From Thiotrichales bacterium (lineage in GTDB: Bacteria; Pseudomonadota; Gammaproteobacteria; HK1): a stretch of DNA of 64,000 bases. Below are positions 37,488 to 54,451 of the stretch, in pieces. A program made the position numbers and the translations under genes. Numbering within the stretch: position 1 is the stretch's first letter; the number at the start of each line of letters is the position of its first letter. The stretch is taken from contig JAPOSC010000064.1 of the NCBI GenBank assembly GCA_026709935.1, forward strand, positions 1 to 64,000. The letters run 5' to 3'. The notes below the pieces were generated by a model. That model was not told the origin of the DNA and searched no databases. It saw only the letters and a program-made list of their open reading frames with translations.

Positions 37488-39515
37488 GTGAGCGGACGCT
37501 TCGAACCGCGCCCGGTGGTGATCGATACCGATCCCGGCATCGACGACGCGCTCGCGATCATGCTGGCGCTGCGCTCGTACGAGCTGCGCGTCGAGCTGAT
37601 GACCACGGTCGCGGGCAACGTCGGGTTGCGGGCAACGACCGACAACGCGCGCCGCCTCCTCGCGCTGCTCGAACCAGCACCCGTTCCGCGGCTCGTGCCG
37701 GGCGCAAGCCGCCCCCTGCGCGGGCGTCTGACCACCGCTGCCGAGGTGCATGGCGATGACGGCCTGGCCGGGCTGTCGCGCGTGCGGGACGCCCGGGGCT
37801 GTCTCCTGTTTCCCGCAAGCCTCGGACCGCTCCCTGCCCGGGAAAACGCGGCGGACGCGATCGCAGCCAAGGCGCGTGAACATGGCGACGCACTCACCAT
37901 CGTCGCCCTCGGTCCGCTGACCAATCTCGCGCGGGCGATCGACGCGGACGCATCGGCGATGCGCGCGGTCGGGCGACTGATCGTGATGGGCGGCGCGATC
38001 GAGGCGCCGGGCAACGTGACCGCCTCCGCGGAGTTCAACTTCCATGTCGACCCGGAAGCGGCGGATCGCGTCCTCACGTCCGGAATGCGCATCACTCTCG
38101 TCGGGCTCGATGTGACCCACCAGGTGCGTCTTCGCTGGCCGGTGGTCCGCGATGCGCTGCGCGACAACGAATCGTCGCTCGCCCGCGCGATTCGTCACCT
38201 GATGCGCCCGATCGATTCGAACGACGGTGGGCTGTTCCTGAACGATCCGCTCGCCATGGCGCTTGCGGTCGACGCAACTCTGGTCCGCACCCGGGCGCTG
38301 CCGGTCCGGGTGGAGACGAAGGGCGAGCACACCCGAGGGATGTCGATCGCCGACCGGCGCCGGAATCGAGGCGCGCCACGAACCGGGGCGGCGGACGCCG
38401 CCGAGGATGCGCCGCTTGTGGACGTCGCATTCGAAGTCGATACCGCGCGCGTACTGGGACTCATGGCCGAACGGGTCCTCGGCGCCGCCCGGCCGGAGGA
38501 GCGCCCCGCGGACGTCGTGGTGGTGGGAAGCGCGAATACCGACTTGACGGTCACCGCCCGATCACTGCCGCGACCCGGCGAGACGGTCACCGAAGGCGCA
38601 CTCCACACGGGATTCGGGGGCAAGGGAGCGAACCAGGCGGTCGCCGCGCGCCGCGCCGGCGCCGAGGTCGCATTCGTCGCCCGCATGGGCGCCGATGCGC
38701 ACGCGGAGCGCTACCTCGAGCACCTGCGCGCGGAGGGGATCGACATCGGCGCCATCAGCCGCGACCGAAGAGCCGCGTCCGGGGTGGCGCTGATCGCGGT
38801 GGACGCGGCCGGCCACAACCAGATTGCGGTTGCATCCGGCGCCAATACGCGCCTCCGTCCTGCGCACCTGAAGGCGGGGTTGCGGCGAGTGCGCACGAAC
38901 ACGGTGGTCGTCGCCCAGCTCGAGGTGCCGATCGACACCGTGGAAGCCGCATTCCGCGCCGCCCGACGGGCGGGAGCCACCACCATGCTCAATCCTGCTC
39001 CCGTACCCTCCTCCACCGACAAGGTTCCCTCCGTCACCTCCACCGGCGCCACCGCTGCTCCGGAAGGGGCGCCGCTCGTCGGGCTTCTGCCTCCGACGCT
39101 CGTCGCAGTCACGGACGTGGTGGTCGTCAATCAGGTCGAGGGGGAGCAGCTCACCGGCCTGTCGGTGTCCGGTGTCGTTCATGCGCGGCGAGCGGCGGCG
39201 GCGCTGATCGAAAGCGGATTCGGCGCCGCGGTGGTGACCCTCGGCGATCGGGGCGCGGTCTGGACGGACGCAACCGGCAACGGGCGCACCGCTGCGCCCA
39301 GGGTCAAGGCCATCGACACGGTCGGCGCCGGCGACACCTTCGTCGGCTATCTGGCCTCAGGTCTGGCGCGCGGCATTGCGCTCGGCGACAGCGTGGCCGA
39401 AGCGGTGCACGCAGCCGCGCTCGCGGTGACCCGCCAAGGCGCCCAGTCCGGCATCCCCCGACGGCCGGAAGTCGCCCGTTCCGTCTCCGCCGCAACACGG
39501 GCTTCCGGGCCCTGA
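37488..39515 (+). CDS. Nucleoside hydrolase-ribokinase fusion
   Basis: A 675-aa two-domain protein. Residues 1 to about 330 are an inosine-uridine-type nucleoside hydrolase, with the calcium-binding DTDPGIDDA at 13-21, [12 protein letters not shown], the [12 protein letters not shown] segment, [12 protein letters not shown] and the closing Asp in NDPLAMA. Residues from about 341 on are a PfkB/ribokinase, with [14 protein letters not shown], the [16 protein letters not shown] motif and the catalytic [16 protein letters not shown] at about 609-624. One chain could thus release ribose from a nucleoside and phosphorylate it. The start is a GTG. It lies divergent from guaB. Confidence 0.9.
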
Positions 39516-39625: not shown

Positions 39626-39735
39626 AGGCGCGCAAGATGGCGATTGCACGCGGGGAGCACAAGCCCGCGGTGGGCTGCCTTCTCGAACCATTGACGCCAA
39701 GTGGCAAATGCATGTATCAGTGCAGCAGACGTTGA
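39622..39735 (+). CDS. Possible 37-aa small protein
   Basis: Overlaps the preceding tiny frame by ATGA. The sequence is basic and has three cysteines, ending CMYQCSRR. It stops 28 bp before the binding-protein gene and overlaps a candidate promoter at 39691-39720, so translation is uncertain. Function unknown. Confidence 0.25.
   Translation: MKARKMAIARGEHKPAVGCLLEPLTPSGKCMYQCSRR
39691..39720 (+). promoter_or_regulatory. Candidate promoter of the ABC importer genes
   Basis: TTGACG, an 18-bp spacer and TATCAG, with a predicted start about 37 nt before the ATG at 39764. The -10 is weak. Confidence 0.35.
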
Positions 39736-39763
39736 CGAGACCGAAGAACGGGGGAGCACCGCG

Positions 39764-40891
39764 ATGATTCGACTTGGAAACGGACCTTTCGCACCGCATG
39801 ACCGGAGCTGGCGAAGCTTGAGCCGGCGACGGTTCCTCAAGCAGGCGGGCGCCGGCGCCGCCCTCGTCGGAATGGGCGCCGCCGGCCTCCCCGGACCGGC
39901 GCTCGCAACCGACTACATCACCTTTCTCACCTGGTGCGATCACCTCGATCCGCGGCTGCTCGGCGGGTTCCGCGACATGACCGGCATCGAGGTGAAGGGC
40001 AAATCCTACGAGGGCACCGGCACCGCCCTCGCCATCAAGGACCAGTCGCTGCCCGGGGAGTGGGATCTGATCTGCGTGGACCTGCAGGACACCCCCATGG
40101 TGGGGCGCCAGGGATACCTCGCCGAGCTCGACGACAGTCGCGTGCCGTGGGACCGGATCCTCCCCGGCATTCGCGAACAGCCCCATACCTATACCGACGG
40201 CAAGCTGTACGGAATTCCGGACAAGTTCGGCTACTACGGACTCGCCTACAACAAGGACCGGGTCGACCCGGCCGAAGCCAGAACCGCGGAGATCATGTGG
40301 AACCCCAGGTACAAGGGGCGCATCGCGGTCTACGACTACTATTTTCCCATCATCCAGTTGGTCGGCCTCGCCCGGGGGCTCGCACCCAAGGACATCACGG
40401 TCGAGAACCTGGAGTCGACGATCCGCAAGCCCCTGCTCGCGCTCAAGGCCAACACCCTGGTGGTCGGCGACATCGTGACCGCATTGAATGCGCTGCACGG
40501 CGAGTCGGTGGACATGATCGTGGGGGGCGCCGAGTTCATGGTGGCCCTCGACATGGTCGAGAACAAGTCGCTCGACTACAACGTGTTCGACGAGGGTGCG
40601 CTGTTGTGGAACGAGAGCCTCGGGATCTTCGCCGATTCGCAGCGCAAGGACGCCTGCTGGCAGTTCATCGACTGGACGATGTCGCCGCAAGGGCAGCGCT
40701 ACCTCGCGACTTCCGAGTGCTTCTGGGCGAACCCGGTGCGCAGCGACACACCGCTGACCGAGGAAGAGGCGAAGATTCTTCGGTGGGACCAGCAGGTCGA
40801 CATCCTGAAGAACGCCCATCCCTCGACCATCGGCGCTCCGGAACTCGACGGGGCGATGCTTGATCTGTGGCAGGAGTTCCTCGCGTCCTGA
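39764..40891 (+). CDS. Tat-exported ABC substrate-binding protein, PotD/PotF type
   Basis: Periplasmic binding protein of a spermidine/putrescine-type importer, 375 aa. A twin-arginine signal is clear: SLSRRRFLKQAGAGAAL followed by a hydrophobic stretch and an AxA-like site in GPALATDY. Mature features include FLTWCDHLDP, GKLYGIPDKFGYYGLAYN and AKILRWDQQVDIL. A GGGGGAG Shine-Dalgarno supports the ATG at 39764. It heads a plus-strand run with two permeases; the ATPase faces them on the other strand. Ligand unknown; given the hypBA-ureohydrolase genes next door, I infer a cationic guanidine compound. Confidence 0.85.
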   Translation: MIRLGNGPFAPHDRSWRSLSRRRFLKQAGAGAALVGMGAAGLPGPALATDYITFLTWCDHLDPRLLGGFRDMTGIEVKGKSYEGTGTALAIKDQSLPGEWDLICVDLQDTPMVGRQGYLAELDDSRVPWDRILPGIREQPHTYTDGKLYGIPDKFGYYGLAYNKDRVDPAEARTAEIMWNPRYKGRIAVYDYYFPIIQLVGLARGLAPKDITVENLESTIRKPLLALKANTLVVGDIVTALNALHGESVDMIVGGAEFMVALDMVENKSLDYNVFDEGALLWNESLGIFADSQRKDACWQFIDWTMSPQGQRYLATSECFWANPVRSDTPLTEEEAKILRWDQQVDILKNAHPSTIGAPELDGAMLDLWQEFLAS

Positions 40892-40940
40892 GACATGACC
40901 CGGCCGTGACCTCCCCCGGCCGGCCCCGGGTACCCGGACG

Positions 40941-41807
40941 ATGAGTACCCCGCCCTCTTCATCCGGGTATCGCTTCGATCTCGCGAAGTGGGCCACCGTC
41001 CCCACGCTGCTGTGGACCGCACTCTTCTTCGCGGCTCCGCTCCTCTTCATGCTGGCGGTGAGCACCTGGAAACGGGGCCGAGGCACGCTCGATCCGGTGT
41101 GGGATCTCGGCAACTACGAGAAGATCTTCTCCAAGAGCTACCTCCTCCAGGGACTGTTCAACTCGCTGGAGGTATCGCTGATCGTAGTGGTGGTCAGCGT
41201 GCTGGTCGCGTATCCGCTCGCGTACATGCTCGCCTACCGCGTGCCGGCTCGCTGGCAGAAGCTCCTCCTGGTGCTGCTGATCCTGCCGTTCTGGACCTCC
41301 TACCTCGTCCGCTCCTATGCCTGGTCGGTGGTGCTGGGCGACAACGGCATCGTGAACTCCGCTCTGCTGGCGATCCACATCATCGAGGAGCCCTTGCAGC
41401 TCAACTACCGGCGGGGGGCCACCGTGCTCGGTTTCGTCCACTTCTTCGCCATGCTGCTCACCCTCACCATCTACGCCAACCTGGTACAGATCAGCCCCTC
41501 GTACCACCGGGCGGCGGCGGACCTGGGGGCTTCCGCATTGCAGACCTTCATCCGGATCACGCTGCCCCTGAGCCTCCCCGGAATCATGGTCGGCGCGTTC
41601 CTCACCTTCGTGATCACCATGGGCGATTTCATCACGCCCCAGATTCTCGGAGGCGCGAAGGAGCTGCTCCTGCCGCAATCGATCATCCTGCAGATACAGC
41701 GGGCCGCGGACATTCCCATGGCCGCGGCAATGAGCGTGCTGCTGATGCTGGCCGTGACCATCGTCTACTTCGCGTTCTCCCGATGGCTGCGACTGAGCCG
41801 GATGTAG
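40941..41807 (+). CDS. ABC permease, PotB type
   Basis: Inner-membrane channel subunit, 288 aa with about six helices (first near 14-36). The cytoplasmic EAA loop is HRAAADLGASALQTFIRITLPLSLPG, where the ATPase docks; the text here gives it in outline, with key residues A, DLGAS and LPLS. GDFITPQILGG near the end is typical of PotB proteins. It lies 49 bp after the binding-protein gene and 15 bp before the second permease. Confidence 0.9.
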   Translation: MSTPPSSSGYRFDLAKWATVPTLLWTALFFAAPLLFMLAVSTWKRGRGTLDPVWDLGNYEKIFSKSYLLQGLFNSLEVSLIVVVVSVLVAYPLAYMLAYRVPARWQKLLLVLLILPFWTSYLVRSYAWSVVLGDNGIVNSALLAIHIIEEPLQLNYRRGATVLGFVHFFAMLLTLTIYANLVQISPSYHRAAADLGASALQTFIRITLPLSLPGIMVGAFLTFVITMGDFITPQILGGAKELLLPQSIILQIQRAADIPMAAAMSVLLMLAVTIVYFAFSRWLRLSRM

Positions 41808-41822
41808 CGGGCCGACGGCGTC

Positions 41823-42608
41823 ATGCGCTGGCTCCGCCACGGCATCGGATGGACCTGGCTGGCGCTCGGCTACACGTTCGTCTTCCTGCCCGTGGTAGTG
41901 CTGGTGCTGTTCTCCTTCACCTCGCGAGACGTGCCTCTTCCGCCCTTCGAAGGTCCGAGCCTGGAGTGGTACCAGCGGATATTCGACAACGACCGCATGG
42001 TGGACGCGCTGGTCAACTCCGTGGTGCTGGCGGCAGTGTCGTCGTTCGTGGCGACGGTGCTCGGCTTCCTCGGCGCCTACGGCATTGCGCGTCACCGCAG
42101 CCGCTGGGAAGGGGTCATGCGCTACGTCATCATGGCCCCCATTACCGTCTCGTACCTGATCGTCGGGATCGGACTGCTGGTCACCTTCCATGTCATGGGC
42201 GTGCCCAAGTCACTGTGGGCGGTCGGCGTGGGCCATGTGGTGATCAACCTGCCGCTGTGCTTCTCCATCATCCTCGCCGGACTCGGGGAGCACCAGCGCA
42301 ACCTGGAACGGGCCGCTCAGGACCTGGGAGCGAGCGAGCTGGCAGCGCTGTTGAGAGTAACCGTCCCCGTCTCGCTCCCCTCCATCCTGGCGGCCTACTG
42401 CCTGTCCTTCACGCTGTCGTGGGACGAATTCATCATCGCCTTCCTCCTCACGCGCTTCGACGTGACATTGCCGGTCATGCTCTTCGAACTTCTGCGCGGC
42501 GGCAGCAGCCCCGAACTCAACGCGGCGGGCAGCGTGGTGTTCGGTATCTCCATGAGCGTGGTCCTGATCGCGGCCGCGGTCGCGATGATCGGCCGTCGCC
42601 GCGCCTGA
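41823..42608 (+). CDS. ABC permease, PotC type
   Basis: Second channel subunit, 261 aa, six predicted helices. It has YTFVFLPVVVLVLFSFT in the first helix, the PLPPFEGPSLEWYQRIF periplasmic loop seen in PotC relatives, and the EAA loop AAQDLGASELAALLRVTVP. SWDEFIIAFLLTR is diagnostic for this family. The gene directly follows the first permease and converges with the ATPase gene. Confidence 0.9.
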   Translation: MRWLRHGIGWTWLALGYTFVFLPVVVLVLFSFTSRDVPLPPFEGPSLEWYQRIFDNDRMVDALVNSVVLAAVSSFVATVLGFLGAYGIARHRSRWEGVMRYVIMAPITVSYLIVGIGLLVTFHVMGVPKSLWAVGVGHVVINLPLCFSIILAGLGEHQRNLERAAQDLGASELAALLRVTVPVSLPSILAAYCLSFTLSWDEFIIAFLLTRFDVTLPVMLFELLRGGSSPELNAAGSVVFGISMSVVLIAAAVAMIGRRRA

Positions 42609-42674
42609 GTTTCGACGCCGGCGCCGCGGCATCCGGTCCGACTGCGGAATCCACCGGGAGCGGTCCGGATACGC

Positions 42675-43763
42675 TCAGTCGGCGAGCAGGACGAGATCCT
42701 CGCGCCGCACGAACACCTCGGGCCGATCACCGCTACGGACGGGATGCTCCGCCGGCACCCGGATCAGCAGATCCGTCTCGCCTTCCTGCATCGAGACGGC
42801 GTGGCAGCGGCGGTGCGCACCCTGAAACACGGTCTCCCGGATGGTCACCCGACCAAAGGAGATTGCGCCCGCAACCGGCCCGAGCCTGATGTGTTCGGGT
42901 CGGACCGAGAGGTGCACGGTCGTCGTCCCGTCCGGCGCCCTGCCCTCCATCCGCACCTCGGCGAACGGCGTGCGCAGGTGCAAAAGGCCGTCGCGCCGGC
43001 CGGACACGGTGGCGGCGAGGATGTTGCTCTCGCCCATGAAGGTCGCGGTGAACAGGGTGGTCGGAGCGAGATAGACCCGGTCCGGCGAGCCGAGATCCTC
43101 GATTCGCCCGCGATTCAGCACCACGATCCGGTCCGCGATGTGCATCGCTTCTTCCTGATCGTGCGTGACGTGAACGGAGGTGACGCCGAGTTTCTTCTGG
43201 AGCCCGACCAGCTCTTCCTGCATCTGGCGCCGGAGACCGAGATCGAGCGCTCCCAGCGGCTCGTCCAGAAGCAGCACCGTGGGCTTCACGGCAATCGCCC
43301 GTGCGAGCGCGACCCGCTGGCGCTGGCCCCCGCTGAGCTGGTGAATGGAGCGCTTGCCGAAACCTTCGAGCCCCACCATGCGCAGTGCCTCGTCCACCCG
43401 GCCCTGGCGCTCGGGCTTGCGCACCTTGCGCATTTCCAGGCCGAAACCGACATTGGCTTCGACGGTCATGTGGGGAAACAGTGCGTAGTCCTGAAACACG
43501 GTCACGGTAGGCCGCCGTGAAGCGGGCAGCGTGGTGACATCCTGCCCTTCGATGAATATCCGTCCCGCGCTGGGGGTGATGAACCCCCCCAGCATCGCGA
43601 GGATCGTGGTCTTCCCACTGCCCGAGGGGCCGAGCAGCACCACGAACTCGCCCCGGTCGATGGCGAGGTTCACAGCGTCCACCGCGACCGCCTCGCCGTA
43701 AGTCTTGCGAACGCCGCGCAGTTCCACCAGTGGCCCGTCCGATCCGCGCCCTGTCGGGTTCAC
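42675..43763 (-). CDS. ABC importer ATPase, PotA type
   Basis: Drives the importer encoded at 39.8-42.6 kb. The 362-aa protein has Walker A LLGPSGSGKTT, Q-loop VFQDYALFPHMTV, signature LSGGQRQRVALARAIA, Walker B VLLLDEPLGALD and H-loop VTHDQEEAM. A C-terminal TOBE domain includes SVRPEHIRL. The frame opens with an ATG at 43793, but a GTG at 43763 has GGGGGA 5 nt upstream, so I prefer it. Unusually it lies on the strand opposite its permeases and is divergent from hypB. Confidence 0.9.
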   Translation of the reverse strand: MNPTGRGSDGPLVELRGVRKTYGEAVAVDAVNLAIDRGEFVVLLGPSGSGKTTILAMLGGFITPSAGRIFIEGQDVTTLPASRRPTVTVFQDYALFPHMTVEANVGFGLEMRKVRKPERQGRVDEALRMVGLEGFGKRSIHQLSGGQRQRVALARAIAVKPTVLLLDEPLGALDLGLRRQMQEELVGLQKKLGVTSVHVTHDQEEAMHIADRIVVLNRGRIEDLGSPDRVYLAPTTLFTATFMGESNILAATVSGRRDGLLHLRTPFAEVRMEGRAPDGTTTVHLSVRPEHIRLGPVAGAISFGRVTIRETVFQGAHRRCHAVSMQEGETDLLIRVPAEHPVRSGDRPEVFVRREDLVLLAD

Positions 43764-43865
43764 TTGATTCCCCCGTTTCCTCCCGATTAGCATTTACTCT
43801 CATATCGGATCGCCTTTCAACGCTGCGGGCGGAAGTCCGTCGGGCCCTTCTGTGGAGGTGGACTC

Positions 43866-44795
43866 ATGTGCTCGGTATGCGGTTGCAACGATGTCGGTGC
43901 CGACGGTCATGCTCACGTTGAACCCACCGGCCATCATCGCGTCCACACGCATCGTCACCATCACGCCCACACCGAGGCTGGCGACACCGAGGCTGGCGAC
44001 ACCGGGTCTGGCGACGGACATCGGCATGTCCACGGCCACGACCATTACGGGACAGGACCGGCCGGACTCACCGTGCCGGGATTCACTCAGGCGCGCCTGA
44101 TCGAAATCGAGCAGGACATTCTCTCCCGGAACGATGCGGACGCTGCCGCCAACCGGCGGCGGCTGACCGAGCGGGGGGTGCTCGCGCTCAACCTGATGTC
44201 GAGCCCGGGGGGCGGCAAGACCACCCTGCTCGTCGAGACCATCGAGGCCCTGAAGGGCACGCTCGCGATCGGGGTGGTGGAAGGGGATCAGGAGACCAGC
44301 AACGACGCAGAGCGCATCAGGGCGTGCGCGGTGCCGGCGGTGCAGATCAATACCGGCCGCGGCTGTCATCTGGATGCGCACATGGTCGGACACGCGCTGG
44401 ACGACCTGCCGCTCGCGCCGGGCGGCGTGGTGTTCATCGAGAACGTGGGCAATCTGGTGTGCCCGGCCGCCTTCGACCTCGGCGAAGCCTGCAAGGTGGT
44501 TATCCTCTCGGTCACCGAAGGCGAAGACAAGCCGCTCAAGTACCCCGACATGTTCGCGGCAGCCGACCTCATGCTGCTCGGCAAGACGGATCTCCTGCCG
44601 CACGTGGACTTCGATCCGGAGCGGGCGCTGGGGTACGCCCGACGGGTGAACCCGACCATCGCCGAGATCCGTCTCTCCGCCCGCAGCGGAGAGGGCATGG
44701 CGGCGTGGCTGGACTGGATTCTCGCCCGAGCCCGGAAGGCGGCGAAGGGTGCCGTCTCCAGTGTCCCCTCGCACGACGCTCCCGCTCATGCATGA
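43866..44795 (+). CDS. hypB: Nickel-insertion GTPase HypB
   Basis: GTPase that loads nickel into target enzymes. The 309-aa protein has an N-terminal CxxCxC site (C2, C5, C7) and a His-rich nickel-storage stretch (about 15-60). The GTPase has Walker [10 protein letters not shown] (112-120), [13 protein letters not shown], and the metal site [34 protein letters not shown] and [10 protein letters not shown] follow. GGAGG at 43854-43858 sets the start. hypA overlaps its end by 8 bp, and two ureohydrolases follow; no hydrogenase or urease gene is in the window, so the client is probably the ureohydrolase pair. Confidence 0.95.
43971..44015 (+). repeat. Three 15-bp repeats in the His-rich region of hypB
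   Basis: Two exact units ACCGAGGCTGGCGAC and one variant encode [15 protein letters not shown], a spacer within the His-rich N-terminus. Confidence 0.8.
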
Positions 44796-45159
44796 GCTCG
44801 CGCTGGCCCGGAGTCTCATCGAGATGGTCGACGACTACGCGCTCGCACACGGCGCGCGGCGGGTCACGCGGGTGCACGTGCGGCTCGGAGTGCAGTCGGC
44901 CCTGACCCGCGCCTTGCACGTGAGCTTTCGGGCCGCTTCGAGGGGCACGCGCTGCGACGGGGCGACGCTCGACATCGAGGTAATCCCGCTGACCGTCCAC
45001 TGCCGCCTCTGCGACGGCGTGAAGACACCGAGCGGACCCTGGAACTTTCGCTGCCCCGACTGCGGCCGCGCGACGCACGAGATCGTGACGGGACGCGAGA
45101 TGCAACTCGCCGCCATCGTGCTCGGGAATGACGGCGGCGCCGCCACCCACCCCGGGTAA
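44788..45159 (+). CDS. hypA: Nickel metallochaperone HypA
   Basis: Delivers nickel together with HypB. The 123-aa protein begins [10 protein letters not shown], so His2 of the MHE nickel motif is present, and has the zinc pairs C72/C75 and C89/C92. It is slightly longer than hydrogenase HypA. I choose 44788 over an upstream ATG at 44749 because MHE must be N-terminal for nickel binding. It overlaps hypB by 8 bp, and the alpha ureohydrolase starts 20 bp downstream. Confidence 0.94.
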
Positions 45160-45179
45160 TACACTGAAGGCCGAATGCA

Positions 45180-46259
45180 ATGGGAGTCCAGCCCGAAAAT
45201 CCGTGGTCCTTCGTCCCTCATCAGCACCGGGGACCTCATCAGGAGTGCGATCCGGAAGCCCACACCCGTTCCCCCACCCGGCACAACGCCTCGTTCAAGT
45301 CGGCGGGGATCATGACCTTCATGGGCGCTCCCTACTGCCCGCCGGAACGGGACCGGATCCGCGAGATGGGCGCCAGGGTCTGCTTCCTCGGTGCTCCCTG
45401 GGATCTCGGCACCATCGTACGCACCGGCACCTCCAGCGGCCCCCAGGGCATACGGGAAGCCTCCACCCAGTACTTCCCCTACATGTTCGAGTATGACGTC
45501 GATCTGATGACCTTCTTTCGCGTCATCGACTGCGGCGACGTTCCCAACGTGCCCGGCAACAACGAGCTGTCGCAGCAGTACATCTGCGACTATGTGGGCG
45601 AATGCCTGGAAGGTGGGGCCAAGGTCATCCTGGTGGGAGGTGACCATTCCGTACCGATCCCGGGCGCCTGCGCGCTCTCGCAATACCTTGCCCGGCACCG
45701 GCCCGGGGCGAAGATGGGCTACCTGCATATCGATTGTCACCTTGATGCCGCGGTCGACTGGGGTGGCAACGAGCTCACCAACGCGTCCGGGCCACCCATG
45801 GCTCTGAAGCTCCCCAACTGCAACGGCGAGAACATGGCCCACCTGGGGTCGCGCAACGGACTCAACCCGAAGGACTGGATGGACTTCTGGATCGACAACC
45901 GCATCCCGGTGATCCCCATGACGGAGGTAGTCGAGCGCGGGATCGACGCCTGTGCCCGGGACATCTTCGAGCGCGCCGCGAACGGAACCGAAGCCATCTA
46001 CTGCTCCTGGGACACGGACTCGATGGACCATAGCTGCATGCCGGGCACCTCCTGCCCGGAGAGCTTTGGAATCAAGGCGCGCGAGGCGCTGCAGATTGCA
46101 CGTATCGCCGGCGAGTACGGGGTGGACGTGCTGGAACTCGCGGAGCTCGCTCCGGTATTCGATACCAGTCAGATCAGCACCAAGCTGGCCTGCAACCTCG
46201 TCTACCACTACCTGGGAAGTCGGGCCGCGACGCTACGCGCTCGCAACGAGGCTCCGTAG
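45180..46259 (+). CDS. Ureohydrolase-family enzyme, catalytic (alpha) subunit, probable Ni-dependent guanidine-compound hydrolase
   Basis: Arginase/agmatinase fold, 359 aa. All six metal ligands are present: H156 (GGDHS), D185, H187 and D189 (HIDCHLDA), D278 and D280 (SWDTDSMD). An N-terminal extension of about 45 residues leads to GIMTFMGAPYCPPE, like the xFMRAPY lead-in of agmatinase relatives. The next gene encodes a paralogue lacking most of the ligands, and hypBA lie immediately upstream. This combination is known for metformin hydrolase and its presumed ancestor dimethylguanidine hydrolase. Guanidine hydrolase GdmH also uses HypAB-like helpers but is encoded as one subunit. I infer hydrolysis of a substituted guanidine; plain agmatinase cannot be excluded. 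Confidence 0.8.
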   Translation: MGVQPENPWSFVPHQHRGPHQECDPEAHTRSPTRHNASFKSAGIMTFMGAPYCPPERDRIREMGARVCFLGAPWDLGTIVRTGTSSGPQGIREASTQYFPYMFEYDVDLMTFFRVIDCGDVPNVPGNNELSQQYICDYVGECLEGGAKVILVGGDHSVPIPGACALSQYLARHRPGAKMGYLHIDCHLDAAVDWGGNELTNASGPPMALKLPNCNGENMAHLGSRNGLNPKDWMDFWIDNRIPVIPMTEVVERGIDACARDIFERAANGTEAIYCSWDTDSMDHSCMPGTSCPESFGIKAREALQIARIAGEYGVDVLELAELAPVFDTSQISTKLACNLVYHYLGSRAATLRARNEAP

Positions 46260-46298
46260 GCTTCCGCGCCTGCCGAACCATCACCGGGAGTCCGGTTC

Positions 46299-47348
46299 AT
46301 GAACCCTGCCAAGGCATTCGCCCACCTGTTTTCGCCGCTTGCGGACGAGGACGCCGACAACTACCGCAACCCGGGACAGATCTCGTTCCTGCGAGCGCCC
46401 TTCGTCCCCATCGACAGTGCCGAGCTGCGGGAAGTCGACGCGGAGTACGCGTTCATCGGCGTGCCCTTCGACGAGGGCAACGTCGGGAAGCCGGGCTGCG
46501 AGGACGGCCCCCGCGAGTTCCGGGTCGCCTCCCTCGACTACTTTCCCTACTGGTTCGAGTTCAACGTGGACCTGCACGGCTGCGCCGTCGACTGCGGCGA
46601 CGTCTCCATGCCGAGGGTGAATCCCGCGCTCGCCCGGGAACGCATCTACGAGGCGGTGCGGACCGCGCTGGAGGCCGGCTTCAATCCGATCATCTGCGGC
46701 GGCGATCGGTCGATCTCCATTCCCGCGTCCAGAGCGCTCTCCGATCATCTGGGGCAGGACCGGCGAATGGGCTACCTGCATCTCGGGGCCCATCTGGACT
46801 TCGCCGATCGGTGGGCCGGCGAGTCTCACGTCAGCACCTGCGCCATGGCGCGCATCACGGAACTCGGCAATCTCGATCCCGGCAACGTCGCCCACATCGG
46901 AGCCCGCAACTCCTTCAACCCCAGAGACCACGTGGATCTCGCGAAGGACCGCGGCGTCCGGTTCCACCCCATGCTTGAAGTGCTCGAACGCGGTGTCGAC
47001 GAGGTTCTGGACGAGGTGGTGGCCAGGGTGTGGAGCGGCACCGACGGGCAGTACCTGAGCTTCAACTTCAACGTCATGGATTCCTCGTGCGCGCCGGGGG
47101 TGACCGCCACCGAGCCCGGCGGCCTGGAGGCGCGCGAGATCATGCGGGTCGCGGCGAGGATCGCCGATGCCGGAGGACCGACGGTCATCGACGTGTCCGA
47201 GCTGTGCCCGATGTTCGACGTGAGCGGCTCGACCTCGCGCATGGCGGTCTGCGTCGTACTCCGGATCCTGGCCGGCGTCGCGCGCCACAACGGAAAGACT
47301 CTGGACGATTCCCTGCGCCGGCCCGGTTGGCGGCACGGGCAACGGTAG
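46299..47348 (+). CDS. Ureohydrolase-family pseudoenzyme, probable beta subunit
   Basis: A 349-aa paralogue of the preceding protein, sharing the fold and many framework residues (YFPYWFEFNVDLHGCAVDCGD). Four of six metal ligands are gone: R137 replaces the His of GGDH, G163 the first Asp of DxHxD, and N256 and N258 the two Asp of SxDxD. H165 and D167 remain. It therefore should not bind a dinuclear metal centre. A GGGAG Shine-Dalgarno lies upstream, 40 bp after the alpha gene. In metformin hydrolase the non-catalytic subunit is required for an active heteromer, and I expect the same here. Confidence 0.82.
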   Translation: MNPAKAFAHLFSPLADEDADNYRNPGQISFLRAPFVPIDSAELREVDAEYAFIGVPFDEGNVGKPGCEDGPREFRVASLDYFPYWFEFNVDLHGCAVDCGDVSMPRVNPALARERIYEAVRTALEAGFNPIICGGDRSISIPASRALSDHLGQDRRMGYLHLGAHLDFADRWAGESHVSTCAMARITELGNLDPGNVAHIGARNSFNPRDHVDLAKDRGVRFHPMLEVLERGVDEVLDEVVARVWSGTDGQYLSFNFNVMDSSCAPGVTATEPGGLEAREIMRVAARIADAGGPTVIDVSELCPMFDVSGSTSRMAVCVVLRILAGVARHNGKTLDDSLRRPGWRHGQR

Positions 47349-47524: not shown

Positions 47525-48406
47525 TCAGGCCCGGCGCGGACCGGTCGACGGCAGCACTTCGACCAGCGCCGCACCGACGATGAGCACCGATCCGATGATC
47601 CGGGCGATGCCGAAGGGCTCGCCGGCCAGCACCGCGGCCGATACCAGTCCCGTGATCACCTCCAGCATCAGCAACAGTCCGGCCCGGCCGGGACTGAGGA
47701 GCCGCACCCCCCACAGGATCCCTCCCATGCTCGCGATGGTCACCACCGCGACCACCACAACGATGGCCGCCGCTCCGGGGGTGACGACCGGCGCCGGCCC
47801 GGACATGACCGGCAGCAGGGAGATGACCGCGATCACCGTGGCGCCACCCGCGAAGAAGGACGTGGTGTGCGCAACCGGCGAGACCGTGGCGTCCTGATGC
47901 ACGCGCAGGCTGCCGAGCGCCCACATCGCGCCGGCGATCAACGCGCACCAGTCGCCGGAACTGCGCGGCAGGGGCACACCACCCTCGCCCCCCAGTACCA
48001 CCCAGAGCCCGCCGAGCCCCAGCCCCAGCGCGGCGAGTCGCGAACCGGTGAACCGTTCGGCAAGCAGCAGGCGGCCGAGCACGGTGGCCCACACCGGACT
48101 CAGGTAAAACAGCAGGATCGCGGCCGCGACCTCGGTGAGGACGAGCGACACGGAATAGAGCACGAAGGAGCCCCCGGTGAGCAGACCGGTCGCGAACATG
48201 CGCGGGGTGAGTGCGGCCCGCGCGGGACGATGCCGGAGCAGGACCGGGACGAGGAGCGCGAGCCCCACCACGAACAGGCCGAGCGTGATCCACACCGCGC
48301 CCACGCCCCGCGCGTCGAGGTGCCGCACCGGTATCCAGTACAACCCCCAGAGCGCACCGGAGACCGCAATTGCGGTCTCGGAGGCGGTGAGTCGCGGGAA
48401 TATCAC
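47525..48406 (-). CDS. EamA/DMT-family transporter
   Basis: Inner-membrane carrier of 293 aa with ten predicted helices in two EamA repeats. The first repeat begins AIAVSGALWGLYWIPV, and the second begins near GDWCALIAGAMWALGSL. GGILWGVRLLSPGRAGLLLMLE near the end is typical. The start is uncertain: GTG codons at 48418 and 48406 are possible, and neither has a clear Shine-Dalgarno. Substrate unknown. It converges with the ureohydrolase operon and might export a product or be unrelated. Confidence 0.82.
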   Translation of the reverse strand: MIFPRLTASETAIAVSGALWGLYWIPVRHLDARGVGAVWITLGLFVVGLALLVPVLLRHRPARAALTPRMFATGLLTGGSFVLYSVSLVLTEVAAAILLFYLSPVWATVLGRLLLAERFTGSRLAALGLGLGGLWVVLGGEGGVPLPRSSGDWCALIAGAMWALGSLRVHQDATVSPVAHTTSFFAGGATVIAVISLLPVMSGPAPVVTPGAAAIVVVVAVVTIASMGGILWGVRLLSPGRAGLLLMLEVITGLVSAAVLAGEPFGIARIIGSVLIVGAALVEVLPSTGPRRA

Positions 48407-48648
48407 AAGGCGGCGCACACCGGCGCCGGATGATTCACCACGATCAGGCGGTTGCGCAGAGACACGTTTTCGTCCCGACTGGCCATGAACGTACCGATAT
48501 CGCGAGGACGCGCTTCCCGAGTTCGAAGCCGTCTCCCCCTCCCGTGCAACCGCGACGCCCCGGAGCAGGAACCGCGCGCCGGCCGCCAGGATTCGGACCC
48601 GGCGGCGAATGCGCAACCGCGGCCCGCGCGGACGGCGGCAAAAAACCG

Positions 48649-51991: not shown

Positions 51992-54451
51992 ATGAACCGA
52001 AACCTGCCCGAGCGCGCGAGCGCGGTCGTCATCGGCGGCGGCGTGACCGGGGCGAGCGTCGCGTATCACCTTGCGAAGCTGGGGTGGACCGACGTCGTCC
52101 TTCTGGAACGCCAGCAGTTCGCGTCCGGCACGAGCTGGCACGCGGCGGGGCTCATCGGCACCGCGCGGCATGGCGACACCCACGCGGGGCTTTGCGCCTA
52201 CACGCGCAACCTGCTGCCGGAGCTGGAGGCGGAGACCGGGCAGTCGACCGGATTCCGGCAGGTCGGCAGCATCGCCATCGCGCACAACCGGGACCGCTTC
52301 GCGGAGCTGAGGCGGCTGGCGGACTCGTACAATGCGTTCGGGTTCGGGCGCATGGAAGTGATCACGGCCGAGGAGATCGGGCACTTCCACCCGTTGGTGC
52401 GCACCGATGACCTCCTGGGGGGCACCTGGCTGGAGATCGACGGGATGGCGAGCCCCGTCGACGTGGTGAGCGCCTATGTGAAGGGCGCCCGCGGGCGCGG
52501 GGTGCGCTGCTTGGAGAATGTGAAGGTCACCAGCATCCGCACCGCGAACGGTCGGGTGGCGGGGGTGGAGACCGAGGCGGGCGACATCGCCTGCGAGTTC
52601 GTGGTGTGCGCGGCGGGGCTGTGGTCGCGCCACCTCGGCCGGCTCGCCGGGGTGACGATCCCGCTCCACGCCTGCGAGCACTACTACGCCCACACCGAGA
52701 AACTCCCCGACCTCCCGCCCGACCTGCCGGTGCTGCGCGATCAGGACAAGTGCGCGTACTACCGCGAGGACGCCGGCAGCCTGCTGGTGGGGGCCTTCGA
52801 GCGCCACGGGCGACCCATCCGGCTCGACGCGATCCCGGAGGATTTCTGCTTCGACGAGCTGCCCGGGCATATGGAAGAGCAGCTCATGCCGGTCCTCGCG
52901 GACGCGATGGAGCGCGTGCCGATGCTCCAGCAGGTCGGCTGGCGGAGCTTCTTCTGCGGCCCTGAGAGCTTCACCCACGACGGTCAGTTCCACGTCGGCG
53001 AATCCCCGGAGCTCCGCAACTTCTACGTCGCCTGCGGCCTGAACTCCGTCGGCATCGTCACCTCGGGCGGGATCGGCCAGGCCTGCGCGGAGTGGATGGA
53101 CAAGGGCCACCCGCCGCTCGACCTCACCGCCAACGATCTCCGCCGGGTGTTCACGTTCCAGGGGACTCAGGCCTATATCGAAGAGCGCGTGTCGGAGACA
53201 CTCGGGCTGCTCTACGACCGCCACTACCCCTACCGCCAGTTCGTCTCCTCGCGCGACGTACGCCACTCGCCGGTGCACGAACGGCTCGCCGAGCGCGGCG
53301 CCTGCTTCGGCGAATCGGCGGGCTGGGAACGGCCGAACTGGTTCGCGCCCGAAGGCGTGGCGGCCCGCTACGAGTACAGCTTCTCCCGCCAGAACTGGTT
53401 CGAACACTCGGCCGCCGAACACCGCGCGGCGCGCGAAGGCGTCGCGCTCTTCGACCAGTCGAGCTTCTCGAAGTACCTCGTCAAGGGCCGCGACGCCGGC
53501 CGGGCGCTGCAACGCATCTGCACCAACGACATCGAGGTCGAGCCCGGCCGGCTGGTGTACACGCACTGGCTGAACGAGCGCGGCGGCATCGAGGCGGAAC
53601 TCACCGTGACCCGGCTCGCCGGGGATGCATTCCTGGTGGTGAGCGGCGCCGGGGTGACGCGGCGCGACCTTGCCTGGCTCGAACGCCACATCGACGACGA
53701 CGCGCACGCGGTGGTGGTGGATGTCACCGCGCAGTGGGCGGTGTTCGGGGTCATGGGGCCGGAAAGCCGCGCGGTGGTGACCGCGATCATCGGCGAGGAT
53801 CTCTCCAACGAGGCGTTCCCCTTCGCTGCGGTGCGCGATGTGGAGATCGGCGGCGCGACGGGACGGGCGGCCCGGGTCTCCTACGTCGGCGAGCTCGGCT
53901 GGGAGCTGTACGTACCAGCGGACCAGGCCCGGCATGCGTTCGACCGGATCATGGCCGCGGGCGACAGCCACGGTCTCCGGCTGGCCGGCATGCACGCGCT
54001 CGACTCGGGCCGGATCGAGAAGAAGTTCGTCCACTTCGGCCACGACGTCGCCGATGTCGACACCCCGGTGGAGGCGGGCATGCGCTGGGTGTGCCGCATG
54101 GACAAGGCAGGCGGGTTCATCGGGCGGGACGCGCTCGCACGCCAGATCGATTCCGGCCGGCCGACACCGAAGCGGCTGCTCCAGCTCCTGCTGGCCGATC
54201 CGGAGCCGCTCCTCTTCGGACACGAGCCGATGCTCCGCGACGGCGAGGCGGTCGGCTACCTCACCTCCGGCAACTACGGGCACACGCTGGGCGGCGGCGT
54301 CGGGCTCGGGTACGCGAAGCACGACGGCGGCGTGAGCCGCGAGTGGGTCGAGAGCGGGGCCTGGGAGATCCTCGTCGAGGGCGAGCGGATTCCCGCGAAG
54401 GCCTCGCTCCGCGCGCTCTACGACCCGAGGGGAGAGCGGGCGCGGGGGTAG
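51992..54451 (+). CDS. Dimethylglycine/sarcosine dehydrogenase-like flavoprotein
   Basis: An 819-aa fusion of an FAD-binding amine oxidase (residues 1 to about 380), a linking FAO_M domain and a C-terminal GcvT-like folate-binding region (about 430-810). The FAD loop is VVIGGGVTGASVAYHL. GTSWHAAGL contains His50, matching the residue that binds FAD covalently in dimethylglycine dehydrogenase. Such enzymes remove N-methyl groups to methylene-THF or formaldehyde. Proximity to a possible dimethylguanidine operon is suggestive only. The ATG at 51992 follows a 174-bp divergent gap. Confidence 0.87.
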   Translation: MNRNLPERASAVVIGGGVTGASVAYHLAKLGWTDVVLLERQQFASGTSWHAAGLIGTARHGDTHAGLCAYTRNLLPELEAETGQSTGFRQVGSIAIAHNRDRFAELRRLADSYNAFGFGRMEVITAEEIGHFHPLVRTDDLLGGTWLEIDGMASPVDVVSAYVKGARGRGVRCLENVKVTSIRTANGRVAGVETEAGDIACEFVVCAAGLWSRHLGRLAGVTIPLHACEHYYAHTEKLPDLPPDLPVLRDQDKCAYYREDAGSLLVGAFERHGRPIRLDAIPEDFCFDELPGHMEEQLMPVLADAMERVPMLQQVGWRSFFCGPESFTHDGQFHVGESPELRNFYVACGLNSVGIVTSGGIGQACAEWMDKGHPPLDLTANDLRRVFTFQGTQAYIEERVSETLGLLYDRHYPYRQFVSSRDVRHSPVHERLAERGACFGESAGWERPNWFAPEGVAARYEYSFSRQNWFEHSAAEHRAAREGVALFDQSSFSKYLVKGRDAGRALQRICTNDIEVEPGRLVYTHWLNERGGIEAELTVTRLAGDAFLVVSGAGVTRRDLAWLERHIDDDAHAVVVDVTAQWAVFGVMGPESRAVVTAIIGEDLSNEAFPFAAVRDVEIGGATGRAARVSYVGELGWELYVPADQARHAFDRIMAAGDSHGLRLAGMHALDSGRIEKKFVHFGHDVADVDTPVEAGMRWVCRMDKAGGFIGRDALARQIDSGRPTPKRLLQLLLADPEPLLFGHEPMLRDGEAVGYLTSGNYGHTLGGGVGLGYAKHDGGVSREWVESGAWEILVEGERIPAKASLRALYDPRGERARG

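Follow-up and report, generated by a model that had tools for sequence, protein, structure and literature searches.

Two heteromeric nickel enzymes, the metformin hydrolase MefH and the dimethylguanidine hydrolase DmgH, are the closest described relatives of the system analyzed here. According to PMC11399263 and PMC11271267, both need co-expression of their subunits and have an alpha2-beta4 structure in which beta caps alpha, and residues N199, W192 and E320 of alpha and Y22 and F82 of beta are singled out. PMC11271267 also reports 56 MetCaCb-like pairs, in which beta lacks three to five metal ligands and which mostly lie near nickel chaperone genes, and RsMetCaCb, a heterohexamer at 61.7% alpha identity without metformin activity. 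The DmgH authors used linkage to urease as support for dimethylguanidine as the native substrate. Dimethylguanidine itself has, according to PMC11399263, yet to be identified in any biological system, which raises the question of why bacteria keep such heteromeric enzymes.

The window, by which we mean the whole 64,000-nucleotide stretch that was analyzed (positions 1 to 64,000, forward strand, of contig JAPOSC010000064.1, assembly GCA_026709935.1), comes from a Thiotrichales bacterium whose draft genome is 95.9% complete and comprises 88 contigs. One scan across genome contigs yielded 33 related loci (loci carry L-numbers and genomes G-numbers below), and 35 alpha and 32 beta proteins were used for a tree, in which the window pair belongs to a subclade that we call W (16 alpha, 14 beta). 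Most of the sampled genomes are metagenome assemblies, so absences of genes are soft throughout. Eight genes at 39701-47348 would form an uptake-plus-hydrolysis cassette, listed here with one neighbor:

39701-40891, + strand: PotD-like substrate-binding protein of the cassette ABC transporter, with a Tat signal (SBP_bac_8; weak PotD match below cut-off; fold match to PotD/PotF).
40941-41807, + strand: PotB-like ABC permease (NCBIfam PotB 182.8 bits, below the equivalog cut-off; conserved in W loci only).
41823-42608, + strand: PotC-like ABC permease (NCBIfam PotC 162.5 bits, below the equivalog cut-off; conserved in W loci only).
42675-43793, - strand: PotA-like ABC ATPase, oriented opposite to the other cassette genes (NCBIfam PotA 352 bits; 53-76% identity with its counterparts in other W cassettes).
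43866-44795, + strand: hypB, nickel-insertion GTPase with an N-terminal MCSVCGC motif and a His-rich stretch (277 bits to TIGR00073, above its cut-off; 45.7 bits to HypB_prefix_1, whose cut-off is 30).
44788-45159, + strand: hypA, nickel metallochaperone with an MHEL start and two CxxC pairs (PF01155 87.9 bits).
45180-46259, + strand: alpha, catalytic ureohydrolase subunit with all six metal ligands (359 aa; from homology, residues, tree and alignment).
46299-47348, + strand: beta, metal-free ureohydrolase subunit that has four of six ligands replaced and retains Y22 and F82 of the N-terminal cap (349 aa; from homology, residues, tree, alignment and dN/dS).
47525-48430, - strand: EamA-type DMT transporter with an uncertain start (recurs beside W cassettes without being universal there; also in L013, L020 and L021).

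Alpha has the metal ligands H156, D185, H187, D189, D278 and D280, and beta carries R137, G163, N256 and N258 at four of the six ligand positions, with H165 and D167 retained. We arrive at the same coordinates, frames, intact alpha and four dead beta ligands as the original prediction. Its further claim, that the fold is kept along beta, is borne out by homology to solved subunits: beta matches MefH beta (8RYI chain C) over residues 1-342 (E 1.6e-152), and alpha matches solved MefH alpha chains (8SNF, 8RYI) over residues 8-359 (E 1e-164 to 1e-163). Identity to the solved subunits of metformin hydrolase is about 60-63% for either protein; against the metformin-plasmid MefH pair of Pseudomonas hydrolytica, our own alignment gives 62.5% for alpha and 60.3% for beta. 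The diagnostic residues are all kept, namely N199 (where His is usual), W192 and E320 in alpha, and Y22 and F82 in beta. When the window is compared with L009, its nearest relative, dN/dS comes to 0.086 in alpha and 0.070 in beta, whereas hypB and the binding protein give 0.26-0.28, so purifying selection on beta is as strong as that on alpha and beta is not decaying.

Of the 33 loci, all that reach far enough have beta close to alpha, the sole exception being an orphan alpha (L025), and R137, N256 and N258 of beta are invariant within W; the pairing is not chance. The dead-site pattern is graded across the whole family: all 32 beta proteins have G or S at position 163 and N at 258, while 30 of them have N at 256, 28 have R at 137 and 7 have Q at 165. 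Early-branching beta proteins (L027, L035, L038, L039) retain H at 137, and those of L038 and L039 additionally retain D at 256, residues which suggest that the metal site of beta may have been lost stepwise. In the phylogeny, which had been proposed along with the original prediction, the window pair sits in the MetCa and MetCb clades, each a single branch (support 99/99 for alpha, 100/99 for beta). Within these, W is supported at 100/100 for both subunits and is separate from Aminobacter DmgH, MefH and their relatives.

Several loci have unusual arrangements. The orphan alpha of L025 (4733-5800) lies on a 10.8-kb contig of a genome with another complete pair, and in L024 (9977-13942) a DmgH-type alpha and beta are ~1.9 kb apart, with two predicted frames in the gap. 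L012 and L038 share one 39-kb contig, JABJGO010000013.1, which holds a W pair and a DmgH-type pair; between them is a single GdmH-like ureohydrolase gene adjoining that of a His-rich membrane protein resembling a nickel transporter. The cassette looks accessory and horizontally spread: alpha at E < 1e-100 was found in 2 of 17 genomes of the window's family (the window and G405) and, of 369 genomes sampled from its class, in the window alone. Synteny at the nucleotide level with other genomes of the genus stops at about 51912. Upstream of the cassette, at 37488-39515 (+), a single 675-aa frame joins a RihC-like nucleoside hydrolase N-half to a ribokinase C-half, a fused nucleoside-salvage enzyme whose homologue in G405 is a 680-aa open frame (53% over residues 4-507).

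HypB and then hypA lie directly upstream of alpha in the window, and hypBA is upstream of the pair in most related loci. HypD (hydrogenase maturation) was matched in 0 of 25 genomes searched and in 4 of 14 control genomes, so a hydrogenase is not the obvious client of the nickel chaperones. Urease alpha was not found in the window genome either, and with HypD and urease looked for, no other nickel client was detected in it. Given the adjacency of hypBA and these two absences, in a draft of 88 contigs, HypA and HypB probably serve the alpha-beta pair and nickel delivery is probably dedicated to it. Together with the homology and the alpha and beta clades, this lends good support, on sequence grounds, to a heteromeric nickel hydrolase that would act on a small guanidine, and to that extent the original prediction of a heteromeric substituted-guanidine hydrolase of the MefH/DmgH kind stands.

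The transporter and the active-site pocket set W apart. Of the W loci that extend as far as the binding-protein gene, 14 of 14 encode a PotABCD-like transporter, and binding protein and permeases of W type occur in 0 of 19 other loci, some of them short; non-W loci have transporters of the NCS1 or TauT type, in many cases a type III glutamine synthetase, and in several urease. The ATPase gene is inverted in the window and L009, whereas the remaining W loci have it after the permeases and co-oriented with them. A plain polyamine importer was considered and rejected. The fold of the binding protein is PotD-like (model mean pLDDT only 66), but the spermidine-binding acids D168 and E171 of PotD align with Y213 and P216, though an invariant D212 is adjacent.

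In MefH numbering, which we use for all pocket positions (80, 184, 190, 196, 200, 288-290 and 319), the alpha proteins of W share T80 (Q or N in others), V190 (P in others), E196 (variable in others), A200 (C or G in others), A319 (S or V in others) and S289-C290, where others have TTA or STS at 288-290 and MefH has NSA; the window alpha has T80, C184 and T288-S289-C290. Nine of the 16 W-fixed changes fall within 4 residues of 12 metal or pocket positions taken from PMC11399263 and PMC11271267, an area of 73 of 348 positions (Fisher p 0.0016; p 0.011 at a distance of 3 residues and 0.005 at 5), the 4-residue distance and the residue list having been picked after the alignment had been viewed. 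Such changes point away from N,N-dimethylguanidine and metformin as the substrate. Four genomes (G001, G003, G004 and G012) contain both kinds of pair, W and DmgH-type. Urease alpha is present in 2 of 12 W-only genomes vs 11 of 13 genomes with the DmgH type (p 0.0012), and shares a contig with DmgH-type alpha in G001, G003, G012, G018, G020 and G023. No urease was found in the flanks of W loci, and with none seen in the window genome, the linkage that the DmgH authors used as support for dimethylguanidine is absent here. Urea carboxylase was over the cut-off in 0 of 32 genomes, low-score matches being nearly all to the biotin-carboxylase part alone, and a search for a guanidine riboswitch in the window and 12 related loci found none. 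We also looked for dimethylamine monooxygenase (PF11927) as a downstream step and set it aside, as only G005 and Aminobacter have it among 39 genomes.

Together, pocket, transporter, coexistence and missing urease favor a small guanidine other than N,N-dimethylguanidine, and none of them names it. The suggestion in the original prediction that the substrate is possibly dimethylguanidine is, as worded, not supported: W lies outside the assayed Aminobacter branch. We consider it rather probable that the eight-gene cassette encodes a nickel alpha-beta hydrolase for a substrate that is neither N,N-dimethylguanidine nor metformin.

The reading that survives best beside this is that the pair is a plain DmgH-like hydrolase of dimethylguanidine whose importer differs and whose pocket differences are neutral, which is possible but, in our judgement, unlikely. 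The two enzymes belong to one family at about 62% identity and have N199, W192, E320, Y22 and F82 in common; PMC11399263 describes DmgH activity in a homologue of about 70% identity and a more active DmgH with T289S, so S289 is compatible with this substrate. Unchanged beta cap residues and N199 near the metals would fit the same substrate too, but the fixed changes are subclade-wide and concentrate at the active site, the pair coexists with a DmgH-type pair (resting on four genomes), urease linkage is lacking and the transporter differs. Our literature search found no report of N,N-dimethylguanidine having been tested on the W subclade.

Creatine is another N,N-disubstituted guanidine, and a nickel-dependent creatine hydrolase yielding urea and sarcosine might feed the product of a sarcosine/dimethylglycine dehydrogenase-like gene at 51992-54451, 4.6 kb downstream, whose DAO+GCV_T protein has counterparts in all other W genomes. 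We hold this to be very doubtful and rejected creatine as unsupported: that gene belongs to the core of the genus (76-90% identity in genomes of the genus that lack the cassette) and is unlinked to the cassette elsewhere, with no homologue in any other W locus fetched; the DAO+GCV_T family is about equally common in relatives without W; and the pocket gains no basic residue able to hold a carboxylate. A metformin or biguanide hydrolase is more improbable still. C184 and S289 are common to the window and MefH and not to Aminobacter DmgH, but C184 occurs in DmgH-type relatives too, T288 and C290 stand where MefH has N288 and A290, Q80 is replaced by T80, and RsMetCaCb, which may sit on another branch than the window pair, lacks metformin activity. 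Finally, we give hardly any credence to alpha as an ordinary homomeric manganese agmatinase or arginase with beta as a decaying duplicate: both proteins match the general Arginase family (PF00491), but agmatinase scores (TIGR01230; alpha 120.5 bits, beta 119) are below the curated cut-off of 174.3 and the NCBIfam arginase score is also below its cut-off, alpha has N where ordinary members carry the catalytic His, beta is under strong purifying selection with its replaced residues invariant, and nearly all loci retain both genes.

Our preferred reading, a cassette for another small guanidine, would work as follows. The PotABCD-like ABC transporter would import a small cationic guanidine, HypB and HypA would load nickel into alpha, and the di-nickel alpha would assemble with metal-free beta, most likely as alpha2-beta4, with beta capping alpha and completing its active site. 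The enzyme would hydrolyze a small N-substituted guanidine to an amine and a urea-type product, and the amine is probably the nutrient, because neither urease nor urea carboxylase was seen in the genome. By judgement, we would rank another N-alkyl or N,N-disubstituted guanidine first and methylguanidine second as candidate substrates. Paired ureohydrolases have been published, and we found in the literature no description of the W cassette or of its putative separate specificity. That W is a third class, by specificity, among the heteromeric nickel ureohydrolases, having spread through alpha- and gammaproteobacterial metagenome genomes in an eight-gene cassette that brings its importer along, and serving an unrecognized natural guanidine used for its amine and not its urea nitrogen, is a proposal that we regard as about evenly balanced. 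As a second class that differs in transporter and pocket and coexists with the dimethylguanidine type, W would be an independent handle on which methylated or alkylated guanidines are found in nature, and the W binding protein would offer a direct route to finding the compound.

How does the window compare with the known systems? Like DmgH of Aminobacter niigataensis DSM 7050 (L028; PMC11399263), it has tandem alpha and beta genes with hypBA upstream, a six-ligand alpha with N199, W192 and E320, and a degenerate beta, at 62.5% (alpha) and 61.2% (beta) identity. The DmgH pocket reads Q80, S184 and S288-T289-S290, and that of other DmgH-type relatives Q80 and T288-T289-A290; the window, with its T80, C184 and T288-S289-C290, does not fit either. 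The DmgH contig carries urease and a nearby NCS1-type permease, whereas the window has the PotABCD-like transporter and a genome in which no urease was found. MefH, also named MetCaCb or MfmAB (8RYI, 8SNF, 8X3G), has the same architecture and active-site frame and is the best solved-structure match for both subunits. Its pocket (Q80, N288-S289-A290) is drug-adapted, we see the pair here on a plasmid, with transposases around it, and of the MefH set C184, N288, S289 and A290 the window has only C184 and S289. The MetCaCb-like pairs of PMC11271267 are likewise paired ureohydrolases, and the four replaced ligands of the window beta are within the three-to-five range given there; the main text of that paper describes no subclade-specific transporter or specificity class, and its supplementary lists may include W members. 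GdmH (7ESR, and 9FEK, where it is named agmatinase 2) is again a nickel-dependent ureohydrolase acting on a small guanidine (PMC11399263, PMC12508155), but unlike the window pair it is a single-gene enzyme, and it is far more distant (E 1e-46 to 2e-46).
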